From Mucilaginibacter sp. (lineage in GTDB: Bacteria > Bacteroidota > Bacteroidia > Sphingobacteriales > Sphingobacteriaceae): a stretch of DNA of 37,208 nt. The notes under the pieces are model-generated. The model worked only from the letters and a program-made list of their open reading frames with translations. It was not told where the DNA came from and made no database searches. Shown here piece by piece: positions 1,240-15,183 of this stretch. The position numbers were made by a program, and so were the translations under genes. Where the stretch lies: the NCBI GenBank assembly GCA_029237615.1, contig JAQNCM010000408.1, positions 1-37,208 on the forward strand, written 5' to 3'. Position 1 is the first letter of the stretch; each line of letters begins with the position of its first letter.

Positions 1240-2058
1240 TTACCAACTAATAATCTTTCCCATCGGCCTTTTCCAGCCAATTGTGTTACCTGCAATTAAC
1301 GTAGCTTTGTGCAAATTTATCATCATGAGCACTGAAAAATTTTCATATTTTTTAATTTCTATCGGGCCAAAGTCACGCCTTGGGTCCCAGGTTATCATAA
1401 ACTGAAAGTATTTGGGTATCGCTTTTTCACCGTAAACAGTCCCCGCCACCAAGAAACCGGTATATTCATCTCTGTCCAACACCAGGTCATAGTGACCACG
1501 GCTTTCAAATTCGAGCCGAAAGCGGTCTGGCAGATCAGCCCGCCTCACTCCCAGGTCCACAAAATCAAAAATGCCGGCGTTCATTGCGATCGGTTTGGTA
1601 TCGCGGCCCACCCATTTTAAAGGGCGGGGATCGTGCTGGTTAAGCGGAACAGGTTTGGCTCCATTTTTAACCGGAAGTTTATAGATCTTTTCCAGGCGAA
1701 CTTCCGCGGATTTTTCGCAAGAACTGCCCACGTTGGAGATCCGGAAACGAAGATGCATTTGGATGATCTCCTCCTTTTCATTTTGAACTTTGGTCTTTTT
1801 TTGCCAGCGCTCCGAGGTACCCGTATCGATCCGAAAGCGCGGACGACGGAAGTATTCCAGTACGATATTGAGCGTTAAAGCAAAAATGATGGTGATAAAA
1901 CTGACAAAGATGGACACCCATTTCAGGAACACATCATCTGTATGGTCGCGCAAAAATGCATAGATCGTTTTGGCATTCTCGACGCATAAGAACGCTACTG
2001 CTAAAAGCAGCAGGATCAAAAGGATCGGGATCGTCAACTTCGTTTGGTCAATGCGCAT
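1240..2058 (-). CDS. Membrane protein with two N-terminal TM helices and a soluble C-terminal domain, unknown function
   Basis: Long ORF; hydrophobic segments IPILLILLLLAVAFLCV and WVSIFVSFITIIFALTLNIVL; 44 bp downstream of the MBL gene on the same strand. Confidence 0.75.
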   Translation of the reverse strand: MRIDQTKLTIPILLILLLLAVAFLCVENAKTIYAFLRDHTDDVFLKWVSIFVSFITIIFALTLNIVLEYFRRPRFRIDTGTSERWQKKTKVQNEKEEIIQMHLRFRISNVGSSCEKSAEVRLEKIYKLPVKNGAKPVPLNQHDPRPLKWVGRDTKPIAMNAGIFDFVDLGVRRADLPDRFRLEFESRGHYDLVLDRDEYTGFLVAGTVYGEKAIPKYFQFMITWDPRRDFGPIEIKKYENFSVLMMINLHKATLIAGNTIGWKRPMGKIISW

Positions 2059-2102
2059 GCCAGGTTTTAATAAAGATGCTTCAAATATTGTATTATTTGC
2101 TA

Positions 2103-3509
2103 TCAGCCCTCGATCGTATACGTGACCACAGTTTTGCTGGCCGTAATATCGACCTTCGCTAACAGCGCTCCCCAGTTGGCCTGCCCAATAGCGCCTGCCG
2201 GATCGCAGTCAGTCTCATAAACCATATCGGCGCGCAGGATCCGGTTTTTCGTCAGCTCCTTGATCCGTTTATAAAGATTGGCTGCGGGCATTTTCCAGCC
2301 GTTGACCTTGGTGATATTCGGGTCACTGATATCCACGGGGATCATGGCCACCAGTTCCGGGTGGGTCATTTTTTCCAGCGACTCCGGCAAGGTCGCGTTA
2401 TGACTGCAATGATGCCCGACTTTATACAGTACCGTTTGCTGGAGCAGTTTATCCAGCGAAACCGTTTGGCCGGCCCAGTCGATGGTTTTCCAGGACAACC
2501 AGTTACCCGTCTGCGCGTCGCCGACAAAAAGCAATACCTTTTGGGATTCCACCAGCTCGAAGGCCAGCACCAGGCTGCTGTTGTTGGTGTAGGCATCCAG
2601 GTAGAGCGCCATATTTTCCGCCTGGTCGAGCCAATCCTCATCGATATTGCGCCATTTGTTGGCCGGATCGCTATAGTTGATCATTAAAGGGTTGGTCAGG
2701 TGGTCCCGGGGTTTTTCGAACTTCTGGTCAAAAGGAAAAAAAGGCTCACCGGCGACTGGCTTACCCACAAAATTGGTCAGCCCCGCCATAAATCCGTCAG
2801 CCATATTCAATACCGGCGCGAGCTTGGAATCATAGGATTCTCCTTTACCGGGATTGATGTCAAACAGCAAATTATTATCCTTAGGGGGGCCGAGTACGTA
2901 AACTTTTACCGCTCCGGCATCCAGGCCGGGCAGGTCCATGATGGTGCCGGGGTAAAGGTAGCTGACCTGCTTACCGCCTAATGCTTTCAGGTTATTCAGG
3001 CCTTGCTGCGGCACGACCGGCGTGCTGTTTAGCGCCGGCGCATCCAAGCCGTAAAAACCCAGCACGTCATTGATATGCTCGGCGGCCTTGCTGGCGTTCA
3101 ATCCGTTGATCGCGCTTAAACTTTTGCTGATCTCCTGTAGCTTCGTGCTGAGTTTGCGCTGTCCGCCCGCGATCGCCTGCGCCTGCGTGTCATCCGGGCT
3201 ATCCAGCCAGGAGAGCCAGACATGGCCCGCGCCGATGGCTTTAAACGTATCGAAGGCATGCACATAGCCCGAAAGGTGGTCATTGTGCTGGTGGGTGCCC
3301 ACCACGACATCCAGCGGCTTGCCGCTCAGCTTGGTTTTGATATCGGCAGCGATCGATTGCATATGCGGGATGGTCGTGCCGTTATTGCGGAATGAACCGC
3401 AGTCGATTAGGATATGGCTTTCTTTTCCAGCCGAACTGAAGTTGAGCAGGAAACAGTCGCCGAGCTCGCCGACCGGGTACATGTGTACTTTTACTTGTAA
3501 TGGCTCCAT
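2103..3509 (-). CDS. Metallo-beta-lactamase-fold hydrolase (ComEC/Rec2 hydrolase-like), no signal peptide
   Basis: Motif VVGTHQHNDHLSGY (HxHxDH), FVGDAQTGNW and KVGHHCSHNAT. The track start is 3533, but MEPLQVKVHMYPVGELGDCFLL (ATG at 3509) starts 1 bp after the upstream stop and fits better. Confidence 0.85.
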   Translation of the reverse strand: MEPLQVKVHMYPVGELGDCFLLNFSSAGKESHILIDCGSFRNNGTTIPHMQSIAADIKTKLSGKPLDVVVGTHQHNDHLSGYVHAFDTFKAIGAGHVWLSWLDSPDDTQAQAIAGGQRKLSTKLQEISKSLSAINGLNASKAAEHINDVLGFYGLDAPALNSTPVVPQQGLNNLKALGGKQVSYLYPGTIMDLPGLDAGAVKVYVLGPPKDNNLLFDINPGKGESYDSKLAPVLNMADGFMAGLTNFVGKPVAGEPFFPFDQKFEKPRDHLTNPLMINYSDPANKWRNIDEDWLDQAENMALYLDAYTNNSSLVLAFELVESQKVLLFVGDAQTGNWLSWKTIDWAGQTVSLDKLLQQTVLYKVGHHCSHNATLPESLEKMTHPELVAMIPVDISDPNITKVNGWKMPAANLYKRIKELTKNRILRADMVYETDCDPAGAIGQANWGALLAKVDITASKTVVTYTIEG

Positions 3510-3510
3510 A

Positions 3511-5445
3511 TTAGTGAAAATGAAGGTGTGCAAAATTGATCGGGCTTAAAGCGGTATTTTCTTCATACATCGAATCGGTAAAGGAATAATCCTGGGTCGA
3601 ATCGCCTTGCTGGTAATCGGCCTGGGCCTGGAAGCGTTCCTGGCTGCGGATGTTCTTGGTGATGATATAGCTCAGGCTAAAGTCCTTGGAACTATCAAAG
3701 ATAATGGTCGAGCCGCCGCGAAAGCGGATCTCCTGCGGCTCGGCGCCGCCACTGTTGACTTTAATGTTGACCGACTGGGTGATGCTGACGATGACCTGTT
3801 CGAGGATCAGCCCCTGGTTACCCACACGGTAAGCCGGCCGCACCTTGTGGATCTCGATCGGTACAGCTTCGACCTTGTTGAGCGGGTTACCTTTCTCATC
3901 GTCAAAAATAAGTTCGTCGGTGGTCAAGCCAAGTTTTCTAAGCCACTGCTCCCACTCATCCTCGCTGAAATTCGGCCGTTTGGTATCCATCAGGAAAACG
4001 TGCAACTGCCGTTGGATCTGCTGTGAACGCTCCCACAGGGCTTTACGATCACTAATACTGGTCAGTTCCCTTACCAGCGGCTTCAGGAAATCAGCCGTGA
4101 CCTGTAGCGCCCGTGCCTGTACCGGGTTCAGATCCGGCGTCGACCATTGCAGGCTTTCTTCGGACAGCGTGTTGACCTGGTCGGGGAAGATCCCCCAGCT
4201 GCGGAAGGCATCGATCAGCGCGATCCGGTAATTATTTTCACCGGGCTGAGCAAATTCTATATCGGCAGTGATCAGCGCGCGCAGGAAATCGCCGAAAGTA
4301 ATATCAACCGGCGGACAGTAATCTAGCGCGCGGATAGCTATACTAAGCAAATGGCCCGCGATCTCGCAGACTTCCTGCGCCAGCCTCTTGGCCAGGTCGG
4401 GCGAAATCGAACCTTGCGGCAGGATGCCGGTACCGCCGCTGGCGATCCGGATCAGGTCGGCCGTTTTGTAGCTATACACTTTAATAAGGGCGTCAAAGAA
4501 GGTAGCCACCAGGATGGAACCGCGCTCATGCGGCTCGGTAGTGGTTTGGTAAAGCGCCGGATCCGCTTTGCGGCGTACCCATTTATCGCCAACATATTCG
4601 CCGATCCCGCTGCGCAACGCGCCACGGCCATTGGCCAGCGCGGTACCGAACTGGGTAGCCAGTTCGCCCAGGTAATTGAAATGGTTCAGGTCGCCGCCGC
4701 TCAAAGCGATCTGGCTGATCACCAGGTCGTTGATCGTAAAGCGCTGTAAAAGCGCGACGATGTCAGAAAAGCCCTCATGAAAAGCCGGGACATCGCGGTT
4801 GGTATTTTCCAGGAAACGCGGGTGAATGCTGTCGACCAGCGCATGGGTGACCTCGTGGGCAATAATATCCGGTGACAGGCAGCTAAAGATCGTCCCGCCC
4901 GGGAAATTGGTACCCTGCACCTGTAAGGCCGCCTTGAAATAACCAAACAGGATGGCCTTCTTACGCGTATCATAATAGGCGTTTGCGTCCCTGCGGGCAT
5001 GCGGGTAGATCCTGATCTGTCCCACGTATTCGTCCGGTTCTCCTTTTTTAACAAACCTGGCGTTCCAGATCAGCCGGCGCCCGAGCGCCTGCTCAAAAAG
5101 ATCCAGCGTTTTCATAGCGATCGTATAAACGAACTGCTGGTGGAATTGCGGGTTGCCTTCGCTGGGTGTCAGCCCATTTTGCGCCAGCACGCTGATATCG
5201 TCCAGGTTGACCGGTTCGTAAAAGCAGTTACTGGGCGGATCAACGTCTATGACCTCGAAATATTCGCCCGAAGGGCCGACATGGTTATTGAGCACCGTTG
5301 CCGCGCTGACCTCGGTCATCGGCACGCTAAGGTCCTCCCAGCGGATGCGATAAGTGGTTTCATTGATGCCCATCGTATCCAGCCGGGTGGAAAAACCCGG
5401 GTCGAGGGTGTAGCCCCGCAAGAGGCGGTGTACCTGTTTTGCCAT
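3511..5445 (-). CDS. Gluzincin-like zinc metallopeptidase, leaderless, with long C-terminal extension
   Basis: 644 aa ORF; zinc motif IIAHEVTHALVDSIHPRF (HExxH) followed by AFHEGFSDIVALL, resembling the third-ligand helix of M4/M36-type gluzincins. Confidence 0.8.
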   Translation of the reverse strand: MAKQVHRLLRGYTLDPGFSTRLDTMGINETTYRIRWEDLSVPMTEVSAATVLNNHVGPSGEYFEVIDVDPPSNCFYEPVNLDDISVLAQNGLTPSEGNPQFHQQFVYTIAMKTLDLFEQALGRRLIWNARFVKKGEPDEYVGQIRIYPHARRDANAYYDTRKKAILFGYFKAALQVQGTNFPGGTIFSCLSPDIIAHEVTHALVDSIHPRFLENTNRDVPAFHEGFSDIVALLQRFTINDLVISQIALSGGDLNHFNYLGELATQFGTALANGRGALRSGIGEYVGDKWVRRKADPALYQTTTEPHERGSILVATFFDALIKVYSYKTADLIRIASGGTGILPQGSISPDLAKRLAQEVCEIAGHLLSIAIRALDYCPPVDITFGDFLRALITADIEFAQPGENNYRIALIDAFRSWGIFPDQVNTLSEESLQWSTPDLNPVQARALQVTADFLKPLVRELTSISDRKALWERSQQIQRQLHVFLMDTKRPNFSEDEWEQWLRKLGLTTDELIFDDEKGNPLNKVEAVPIEIHKVRPAYRVGNQGLILEQVIVSITQSVNIKVNSGGAEPQEIRFRGGSTIIFDSSKDFSLSYIITKNIRSQERFQAQADYQQGDSTQDYSFTDSMYEENTALSPINFAHLHFH

Positions 5446-5450
5446 ATGGT

Positions 5451-7142
5451 TTAGGTTAATTTTTTGTAGAGGATATAAGGATCATCGTTAAAGGCCTTCC
5501 AGTCCCTGGTGAGCTGCACAACCAAAGCCGCTTCTTCAGTGCTTAAAGCAGGCTGCTTCAGGTAATATTTCAGCAGGTTATAGCAGGTGGTGAATTGCCC
5601 GGTCGCTACGATGCCGGCCAGTTCATCTTGCTGAAAGGGATCGAACCATAAGGTGGTTGGCATGCTGCGGGCTTTTTCAGCGATATCTTTCAGCCGCTGT
5701 TCCAGTTCCTGGATAACCGGCTTCGCGTTCAGCTCCTTTACGGGCGCGTCGATGGTTTTTGCCAGTTTCTCGTCGGTCTTTGGGGAAAGCTTGGCGTTGC
5801 TCAGGTCATAAATAGCATTACTGATCGTCATCGGCCCCAGATCCTTGTCCGCATAGATCATGTTATAATAAAGCCGTCGTATTTGTTTGAGGTAAAGATC
5901 ATCCGCCAAAAGGAATACCGATTTGAGCCGCGAGGTGACCATTTGTTTAAGCCGGCTGACGCGTATGGTCAGGAAATAATCGATATAGTTGAACATGACC
6001 ACCAGCCAGGTGCTTTTTGTTTTAAACGCTTGCTTTTTTTGCAGCGCCAGGAATATCACTCCGCCAATATAGCTTATGGCGAGCACGGCCAGTGGAATAA
6101 AAACAAATTTCATCCATTCGTGCCAGCCTCGGATCGCTGCAAAAACTGCGATAATCACGAAGGACAGCGCGGCCAGTTTGATCATATTGATGACTTGCTG
6201 CACCGTAAAAGCATTATACCAGCGCTTTTTTTCCATGGGCAGCGTGTAGCCGTCGACAAAATAACTGCCGACGTCGGTCAGGACCACCAAATCGAATTCT
6301 TTACCGGTGCCTTTACGACGGTCATTGGCTTTAAAAACGCTGTCGATGGCCTGGTTGTCGGCTACGCCGCCATCCATCAGCCCAAAACGTTCTTTGATGT
6401 CTTTGAAGGTTTCGTTGGAAAGTAGTTCTTTATCGGTGTCGGTAATGGTAAAAGGATTACTTTCATAAATGATCGCGTCGAGTAGCCCTTGCCGGCTCAG
6501 ACCGGCGTGGACAAAGTCATCCGGGAAAATAAAGGGTTCAAAACCGCCCGAGAAACAGGAAGAACAAGCCATCAGGTCACCCAGCTTTAAGTCGCCTGCC
6601 ACCTTCAGGTCTTTAAAATAAATATAGTAATTGCCGACCAGGCCATTGCTGATCCCGGCTTGCTGCGACTGGAAACGAAAACTGACGCCATTGGTAAATT
6701 CGGTGGAGTTGATACAGACCTCTTCTAAATGCGGGACAATACCCTCGCCCGGTTCATATAAGTTTTTAAATGTTTGCGCGCCGAACTTTTCATCATAAGC
6801 GATGGAAAAGGCGTTGATGAGGTTGCGGCTTTTGGTATCGCGTCCCTCCCAGGGCTGCTTTGCCTTCAGGATCTCGAAAACGCGGGCGATCAGGGTTTCA
6901 CCCTCCATCGCCGCCAGTAAAGCTTTATAGGTCACTGAAAATTCGTCGCCCTGGAACACGCCAATGCTGTAGGCGATATTGGTCATGCTGCCGCCGGAAG
7001 TGGAGCCGATAAATTTGACGTTGTTAAGCAGGGGCTTGTCCCAGCCCGGGGGCTGGAGCTGATTCAGGTAAGACAGGGTTCCGAGCGAAAATGCCGCTGC
7101 ACGGAAACCGCCGCCCGAGAAAGCAAGAGCAATGTTCTTCAT
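5451..7142 (-). CDS. Patatin-like phospholipase/acyl hydrolase with internal TM hairpin
   Basis: MKNIALAFSGGGFRAAAFSLGTL (glycine-rich oxyanion loop), FIGSTSGGSMTN (nucleophile elbow), LMDGGVADNQAI (catalytic Asp DGG), then two hydrophobic helices IKLAALSFVIIAVFAAI and FVFIPLAVLAISYIGGVIFLAL. Confidence 0.88.
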   Translation of the reverse strand: MKNIALAFSGGGFRAAAFSLGTLSYLNQLQPPGWDKPLLNNVKFIGSTSGGSMTNIAYSIGVFQGDEFSVTYKALLAAMEGETLIARVFEILKAKQPWEGRDTKSRNLINAFSIAYDEKFGAQTFKNLYEPGEGIVPHLEEVCINSTEFTNGVSFRFQSQQAGISNGLVGNYYIYFKDLKVAGDLKLGDLMACSSCFSGGFEPFIFPDDFVHAGLSRQGLLDAIIYESNPFTITDTDKELLSNETFKDIKERFGLMDGGVADNQAIDSVFKANDRRKGTGKEFDLVVLTDVGSYFVDGYTLPMEKKRWYNAFTVQQVINMIKLAALSFVIIAVFAAIRGWHEWMKFVFIPLAVLAISYIGGVIFLALQKKQAFKTKSTWLVVMFNYIDYFLTIRVSRLKQMVTSRLKSVFLLADDLYLKQIRRLYYNMIYADKDLGPMTISNAIYDLSNAKLSPKTDEKLAKTIDAPVKELNAKPVIQELEQRLKDIAEKARSMPTTLWFDPFQQDELAGIVATGQFTTCYNLLKYYLKQPALSTEEAALVVQLTRDWKAFNDDPYILYKKLT

Positions 7143-10369: not shown

Positions 10370-11137
10370 TTACGATCCCTGCGAACCGCGGTCGGATAGG
10401 GCGCCTTCCCAGTACTTGTAAAAATCGCCCTTGATGGTTTTATACTGGTCGACGAAGGCTTGCACCTGTTGGGGAGTGTTCAGCTCCTTGAGCTTGTCCG
10501 CATTCTCCACGTCATCCAATAACGAGCGTAGTTTATTGCTCAGGGTTTTATTGATCAGCCAGTATTTCTCGACGTTAAAAAAGGTCATGATGGAGGTGTA
10601 AATGGTGATAATCGTTCCGATCACCAAGGCCACGTTTTTGGAGAAGATGGGGTAACCGGTGACGAACCAGCCCGATTTAGCCTCAAAATGCAGTCCCAAT
10701 ACGACCGTAGACAAGCCCGCCAGGATGATCGTGCAGATCTTATAATAGAACACCATGCGGTAGTTGCCATAAGCCGCGTTTCCATAACGCTGCGCATCTT
10801 TGTTCACTTTCTGCACCAGGTCCAGTACAGCCGGATCTGGGCTCAGCAAAGGCTTGTTATAAGGATAAGGCGGTAAAAAGATCTTATTGTGCACGATCGT
10901 GAAGATCAATGCGCACATCACCGCAAATTCGATCCCCACAATAAACCAGCGCGCGCTGCTTATAAATTCGTTGGAGTAAAAATAACTCGTGACCATGAGC
11001 AAGCCGAACACGCAAAGGATAAGAAAACATTTGCTGAACAATACCATGGCCGCGGAAAGCTGGTAATAGAAACGGTACTTTTTTTCGTTTTCGCTATCGC
11101 TGCCTTGCGATGAGGGTTGAATTTCGATGTCGCTCAT
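10370..11137 (-). CDS. Multi-TM membrane protein, SLATT/DUF4231-like
   Basis: Two pairs of hydrophobic helices; C-terminal pair (YKICTIILAGLSTVVLGL ... ALVIGTIITIYTSIMTFFNVEKYWLINKTLSNKLRSLLDDVE) resembles the 2TM plus amphipathic helix layout of SLATT domains. Confidence 0.65.
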   Translation of the reverse strand: MSDIEIQPSSQGSDSENEKKYRFYYQLSAAMVLFSKCFLILCVFGLLMVTSYFYSNEFISSARWFIVGIEFAVMCALIFTIVHNKIFLPPYPYNKPLLSPDPAVLDLVQKVNKDAQRYGNAAYGNYRMVFYYKICTIILAGLSTVVLGLHFEAKSGWFVTGYPIFSKNVALVIGTIITIYTSIMTFFNVEKYWLINKTLSNKLRSLLDDVENADKLKELNTPQQVQAFVDQYKTIKGDFYKYWEGALSDRGSQGS

Positions 11138-14568: not shown

Positions 14569-15183
14569 ATGATGGAGCAGTTAAATATTTTTGGCGACAC
14601 TTTACCTCCGGTTTCATTACCATCCAACCTGATGGAATATCATCAAAAGATATTTGACGCTGAAGAAAGCAGGACGTTTATGGAAACATTTATCCACACT
14701 GTGCCATGGGAGCAAAAAACAGCGACTATGTACGGTAAGGAGATCATCACCCCAAGGTTAATGGCGTGGTACGGCGATACCGGCAAAGATTATGCATTCT
14801 CCGGTACTAAATATGATCCGATACCATGGACTGATGAGTTGCTCAAAATAAAACTGGTTACAGAGCGAATAGCAGGTATCAGCTTCAACAGTGTCTTACT
14901 TAACTACTACCGGGACGGCAACGATTCGGTAGCCTGGCATAGTGATGATGAATACGAACTCGGCATAAATCCGGTGATCGCTTCGGTAAGCCTGGGGCAG
15001 GCGCGGCGGTTTGATATAAGGCATAAAGCTGATCATCAAAATAAGTACTCCATAACGCTTGAAGATGGTTCGTTGCTGTTGATGAAAGGTGATTTACAGC
15101 ATAATTGGGAGCATCGCATTCCCAAATCAACCAAACCTTTAAGGGAGCGTATTAATTTAACCTTTCGGGTGATCCATCACTAG
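14569..15183 (+). CDS. alkB: Alpha-ketoglutarate-dependent dioxygenase, AlkB family
   Basis: WHSDDEYELGINPVIASVSLGQARRFDIRHK (HxD) and RINLTFR; typical small AlkB length. Confidence 0.92.
   Translation: MMEQLNIFGDTLPPVSLPSNLMEYHQKIFDAEESRTFMETFIHTVPWEQKTATMYGKEIITPRLMAWYGDTGKDYAFSGTKYDPIPWTDELLKIKLVTERIAGISFNSVLLNYYRDGNDSVAWHSDDEYELGINPVIASVSLGQARRFDIRHKADHQNKYSITLEDGSLLLMKGDLQHNWEHRIPKSTKPLRERINLTFRVIHH

Follow-up and report, generated by a model that had tools for sequence, protein, structure and literature searches.

A candidate self-destruct operon in Mucilaginibacter that joins a putative gluzincin metallopeptidase, a ComEC-like hydrolase and a patatin-like phospholipase

What function could bring three hydrolases, none with an N-terminal hydrophobic leader, into one tightly spaced operon? 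The question is raised by a stretch of 37,208 nucleotides from Mucilaginibacter sp. (assembly GCA_029237615.1, contig JAQNCM010000408.1; hereafter the window), in which four minus-strand open reading frames (ORFs) follow one another with intergenic gaps of 5, 1 and 44 bp. They encode a patatin-like phospholipase with two central hydrophobic segments (5451-7142, 563 amino acids (aa)), a peptidase, here called PEP (3511-5445, 644 aa), a hydrolase of the metallo-beta-lactamase fold (MBL; 2103-3509, 468 aa) and, directly after it, a two-transmembrane protein (TM gene; 1240-2058, 272 aa). The first three begin with ATG, although the MBL could also start from an in-frame TTG at 3533. An earlier account of this locus made from the letters alone, the sequence-only reading, was correct to the base in its coordinates, strand and gaps, and the motifs it named (GSTSGGS in the patatin, HEVTH in PEP and HQHNDH in the MBL) are all present. 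We propose that the operon is probably an anti-virus self-destruct module. In the form that we hold with moderate confidence, its core is a thermolysin-like metalloprotease and a gated DNase, accompanied by a membrane phospholipase as a second effector.

The conserved core of the locus is the PEP-MBL pair. In a first survey of 42 loci, an MBL gene followed PEP on the same strand in 42 of 42, nearly always touching or overlapping it (in L079 the MBL is broken into two frames, and a contig end truncates the peptidase of L016). These loci span Bacteroidota, Verrucomicrobiota, Acidobacteriota, Planctomycetota, Deinococcota and Pseudomonadota. A PEP scan of genome contigs gave 16 relatives with an MBL relative directly downstream in every case, while a PEP match was found in 65 plasmid records, mostly from Rhizobiaceae but also from Hymenobacter, Deinococcus and others, and in two phage records. 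In a wider profile search PEP occurred in 11 of 149 genomes from the phylum of the acidobacterial genome, 3 of 146 from that of the verrucomicrobial genome and 6 of 247 from that of the window. The distribution is thus patchy, at a few per cent of genomes, and often on plasmids. The PEP and MBL distances correlate with r of 0.85, as compared with 0.31 or less in 2000 permutations. The sequence-only reading was to be given up if its three enzymes did not occur together in other genomes; the neighbourhood survey found them together elsewhere, and the reading therefore stands on this point. Among the records surveyed, CP034120.1 (L011, L034), which is titled Glaciecola amylolytica and has a phylum draw identical with that of the window genome, behaves as Bacteroidota and looks mislabelled.

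The nature of the MBL is indicated by its profile matches and its predicted fold. The metal-binding motif HQHNDH (aa 73-78; 3276-3293, minus strand) is intact, with H73, H75, D77 and H78 present in 40 of 40 MBLs. The protein matches Lactamase_B in Pfam (expectation value (E) 6.5e-6), LmuA (E 1.2e-14) and Avs1a (E 3.4e-9) in PADLOC, and 6A-MBL (E 4.3e-11) and Avs1a (E 8.6e-11) in NCBIfam, the last two far below their equivalog cut-offs (42.5 bits against 220 and 41 bits against 420, respectively). On these matches it belongs to the defence-associated ComEC-like group, so that the complete novelty suggested by the sequence-only reading is not supported. The predicted model has a mean predicted local distance difference test score (pLDDT) of 77.6, with low-confidence segments at aa 157-164 and 232-296. 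Its best solved match in Foldseek is the ComEC beta-lactamase-like DNase domain 9ic4 (E 9.1e-11, TM-score 0.72 by target), followed by a phosphorylcholine esterase (E 4e-7).

When the MBL family profile is aligned to a ComEC-type protein (L088), two gaps appear at profile positions of about 102-160 and 212-309, which therefore represent insertions in this MBL family. The first insertion (about aa 102-160; 3030-3206, minus strand) appears to be partly disordered, aa 131-170 having pLDDT values of about 53-67, and carries F152 and G154, each conserved in 75% of the 40 MBLs. The second (about aa 212-309; 2583-2876, minus strand) is predicted to be disordered at aa 232-296, where the pLDDT falls below 50. 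Mean column identity in the insertion stretches (134-180 and 212-292) is 0.28-0.32, as compared with 0.50 elsewhere in the 40 MBLs. Within the second insertion, at an identity of 0.32, lies the candidate cleavage motif P259-F260 (2730-2735, minus strand), in which the Pro is found in 40 of 40 MBLs and the Phe in 90%; the Pro-Phe motif is also found in two MBLs outside that alignment. The conserved Phe motifs, one per insertion, are about 108 residues apart. A genome from the same family as the window encodes an Avs1a-like MBL with extra stretches at similar places (L083:913-1983, Avs1a profile E 9.7e-31).

PEP is the less familiar partner. It has no significant match in Pfam, NCBIfam or PADLOC, and none to the trypsin or caspase families of Pfam. 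Six residues do not vary across 23 of 23 relatives, namely H197, E198, H201, E224, D228 and H306; they follow the thermolysin order of HExxH, E, D and H, the zinc motif being HEVTH (aa 197-201; 4843-4857, minus strand). A distant relative, L115, matches Peptidase_M4 above the cut-off (PF01447, E 1.4e-5), and another, L126, matches Peptidase_M36 just below it. Whereas the arrangement of these residues, the downstream His included, is thermolysin-like, PEP differs from the M4 and M36 peptidases in having no Pfam match of its own, no secretion signal, and extra C-terminal helical and beta regions. Thermolysin-like enzymes favour bulky hydrophobic residues at P1', which makes the Phe motifs of the MBL insertions candidate cut sites.

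These features suggest the following course of events. PEP would be a cytoplasmic thermolysin-like metallopeptidase that serves as the activator protease, and the MBL would be a pro-nuclease, a ComEC-type DNase in which the two added loops cover the active site. Infection may be sensed through the C-terminal part of PEP or, in some relatives, through an attached module such as LmuB. PEP would then cleave these loops, the conserved Phe motifs being the likeliest sites, and release a DNase that would destroy DNA. In parallel the patatin would attack membrane phospholipids, being otherwise restrained or itself switched on by PEP, and protection against phage would be the outcome. The sequence-only reading had anticipated a hydrolase module, with a nucleic acid as one possible target and perhaps with activation controlled by the peptidase; our analysis supports a real and recurrent module of all three enzymes that is probably related to conflict, and its likeliest logic is a nucleic-acid target for the MBL with control by the protease.

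Gating of MBL nucleases by proteases is already published. Tuck et al. 2025 (PMC12799240) describe their activation by trypsin-like or caspase partners in Hachiman (HamMAB), Avs1 and Canu, and the cut sites mapped in HamM (I118 and I218) and supported in Avs1a (I134 and I234) lie one per insertion, 100 residues apart. The window MBL is likewise ComEC-like, has two insertions with conserved residues and stands next to a protease gene; the spacing of its Phe motifs is close to that of the published cut sites, and in both cases the MBL-protease pair is common to otherwise different settings. The MBL-protease pairs of Avs1, Hachiman, Lamassu and Canu were overlooked in the sequence-only reading, which could name no matching system. 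There are nevertheless differences. PEP is a stand-alone protein, probably a gluzincin, rather than a fused trypsin-like domain or a caspase, the loop residues are Phe (Pro-Phe) instead of Ile or Gly, and a phospholipase is a frequent neighbour of the PEP-MBL pair. The window operon contains neither the STAND protein of Avs1 nor the caspase of Canu, although some PEP relatives have a caspase upstream. Searches of the literature for this combination brought up PMC12799240 alone, and in the papers searched neither a metallopeptidase partner nor a recurrent phospholipase was found. The main text of PMC12799240 refers in general terms to nucleases paired with further, varied protease families that it does not name, and its supplement may therefore already list part of this. 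As far as that text goes, the protease family is new here, and so is the recurring association with a phospholipase.

The resemblance extends to other defence systems. Two Hymenobacter plasmids (L023 and L067) carry an LmuB-like ATPase gene of the structural maintenance of chromosomes type directly upstream of PEP-MBL (E 2e-20 and 4e-24), an arrangement that recalls Lamassu, as does the LmuA match of the window MBL; the window operon, however, has no LmuB, and PEP matches no LmuA model. PADLOC MBL models named PDC-M48B match the window MBL weakly (E 3e-6), whereas PEP matches neither PDC-M48B nor any other PADLOC model. On Rhizobium and Agrobacterium plasmids, patatin-PEP-MBL stands beside cyclase genes of the cyclic-oligonucleotide-based antiphage signalling system (CBASS) and/or the Hachiman genes HamA-HamB (PADLOC-confirmed), and the defence context is clear there. 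Several other loci are flanked by integrases, transposases or ubiquitin-like conjugation genes. CBASS itself includes CapV-type patatin effectors, and the window patatin is proposed to be a membrane-killing effector in the same manner. As the sequence-only reading held, the window operon is not CBASS by content, since no CD-NTase cyclase or other nucleotide cyclase is found among its genes, and the patatin has no PADLOC match.

The patatin matches Pfam Patatin with 41.8 bits against a cut-off of 27.7 (E 1.7e-10), and has no match in NCBIfam. It retains the motifs of the Ser-Asp dyad, GGGFR..GSTSGGS and DGG, with Ser49 as the nucleophile (6996-6998, minus strand). The claim that the enzymes are leaderless holds for all three, but it requires a correction for the patatin, in which hydropathy reveals two strongly hydrophobic stretches, at aa 317-335 and aa 347-365. 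Because of this predicted transmembrane pair (aa 317-365; 6048-6194, minus strand), which is also seen in the stand-alone relatives L033-L035, the patatin is probably membrane-bound, and its Pfam match, its hydrophobic stretches and its recurrence beside PEP-MBL make it a probable membrane-acting second effector. A same-strand patatin, confirmed by Pfam or by annotation, adjoins PEP-MBL in 9 of the 42 loci (the window, L036, L011, L068, L070, L071, L073, L076 and L082). About 0.07 adjacent patatins would be expected by chance over 42 loci, which are not independent; the estimate takes a mean of 4 patatins per genome, from the 1-8 found in ten genomes checked, and assumes about 5000 genes per genome. 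Three changes or more, not necessarily all gains, are required on the PEP tree by the upstream patatin label, and the same holds for the downstream one. Tle1-like lipases (L025, L072 and L078) and phospholipase D (PLD; L069 and L080) occupy the same neighbourhood, which brings the loci with an adjoining phospholipase to 14 of 42. Different phospholipases have thus come to join the same PEP-MBL pair.

This recruitment of three unrelated phospholipase families could be taken to mean that PEP chiefly activates or polices the phospholipase, that the patatin is the main killer, and that the MBL is a phosphodiesterase or a signal-degrading enzyme instead of a DNase. The phosphorylcholine esterase fold, second in the Foldseek search, would fit such a role. 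We regard this as unlikely, for 28 of the 42 loci keep PEP-MBL without an adjacent same-strand phospholipase, the fold matches ComEC more closely, and the layout of two insertions fits the gated DNases. The opposite view, that PEP-MBL is a functional defence pair and the patatin is beside it in the window only incidentally, also seems rather unlikely to us. In three other Bacteroidota genomes, members of the two-transmembrane subfamily to which the window patatin belongs stand alone, and the nearest PEP relatives of the window, in Pedobacter and Parafilimonas, have no patatin beside PEP. Yet the patatin is separated from PEP by only 5 bp and shares with PEP-MBL a raised GC content (49-57% across the three genes, against 43% for the contig), and the nine patatin-bearing loci lie on separate branches, as against about 0.07 expected by chance. 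The raised GC content is consistent with a recent acquisition.

A third explanation would make these proteins secreted or injected antibacterial effectors, of the type VI or contractile injection kind. The cargo of such machines typically includes peptidoglycan hydrolases as well as lipases of the Tle1-like, PLD and patatin families, cell-wall hydrolase or peptidoglycan-binding genes occur near L066, L076 and L079, and the proteins lack leaders, as such cargo often does. We find this rather unlikely as well, because the annotated neighbourhoods that were examined name no gene for secretion or injection, the neighbours being instead CBASS, Hachiman and LmuB, and because a strict two-enzyme pair with an insertion-bearing nuclease is better explained by internal activation. 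An ordinary catabolic hydrolase operon, for which one could argue that all the products are hydrolases and that the phage role is conjectural, is very hard to reconcile with leaderless, patchy and often plasmid-borne genes, an Avs1a-like MBL and a defence-island context.

Several observations weigh against the protease and gated-DNase reading that we prefer. The MBL is not the only possible partner of PEP, since on a 49-row PEP tree it is present in 42 relatives and absent from 7, a pattern that requires three changes, and five of the seven MBL-less PEPs carry another protease, either an upstream caspase (L114 and L119) or an N-terminal subtilase fusion (L116-L118). The co-divergence of PEP and MBL is what any co-inherited operon would show. 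The thermolysin-like assignment rests on motifs and on the distant relatives that match M4 and M36; the best matches of the PEP profile among solved sequences, neutral protease and thermolysin, reach only E 0.2-0.9, and the single sequence gives noise only. As the predicted structure of PEP has no significant solved match in a PDB fold search, we regard PEP as a probable, not a proven, member of the gluzincin clan. The low pLDDT of the MBL insertions may be explained in part by a shallow alignment of 17 rows, and no known defence gene was found adjoining the operon within the window.

The MBL-less relatives are of interest in themselves, and an earlier formulation that PEP always has an MBL was dropped after the wider sample brought them to light. 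In L114 (3026-7808) and L119 (5542-10330), PEP lies directly behind a gene with a caspase domain (C14, E 1e-24 and 3e-23; that of L119 also has an amidase domain), and the layout suggests a relay from caspase to metallopeptidase. L116, L117 and L118, from the acidobacterial phylum draw, are subtilase-PEP fusion ORFs of 1172-1203 aa with no MBL nearby; such fusions also occur alongside an MBL (L024 and L025). An extended form of the proposal, which we put forward only tentatively, is that an initiator protease, a caspase or subtilase in the relatives, triggers the metalloprotease, which unlocks the gated DNase and the membrane phospholipase together.

The TM gene, which the sequence-only reading had included as a component, was rejected as a fourth member of the module. 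Its stretch has a GC content of about 42%, the TM gene and the next gene together being at about 40-42%, and it is an orphan with no relative among 289 genomes of the window's class and no significant Pfam match. Promoter and terminator scans gave nothing above shuffles. The other genes of the window are of Bacteroidota type. Elsewhere in the window, a 204-aa ORF at 14569-15183 (plus strand) matches the C-terminal half of the PADLOC model CARF_2OG (E 2.3e-49), the CARF half being apparently absent, and its product is probably a stand-alone 2-oxoglutarate-type enzyme. A 255-aa protein at 10370-11137 (minus strand) has a weak DUF4231/SLATT-like similarity (E 0.003, below the cut-off). As its contigs C3, C100, C300 and C400 (L055, L057, L061 and L063) indicate, the source metagenome-assembled genome is a contaminated bin in which contigs of about 40% GC are mixed with contigs of about 65% GC and unlike tetranucleotide make-up, and the window fits the 40% GC part.

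If the relay is true, one proteolytic switch would fire the DNA-destroying and the membrane-destroying effectors together. PEP would add a third, unrelated protease class, the metalloproteases, to the partners of gated MBL nucleases, which would show that proteolytic arming of this DNase arose or was swapped more widely, and it would tie the gated-nuclease logic to phospholipase effectors. The caspase and subtilase partners of the PEP relatives look like a bacterial protease cascade. The operon also offers a module in which one can test a peptidase family that matched nothing in Pfam, NCBIfam or PADLOC and that was found across six phyla as well as on numerous plasmids of rhizobia.

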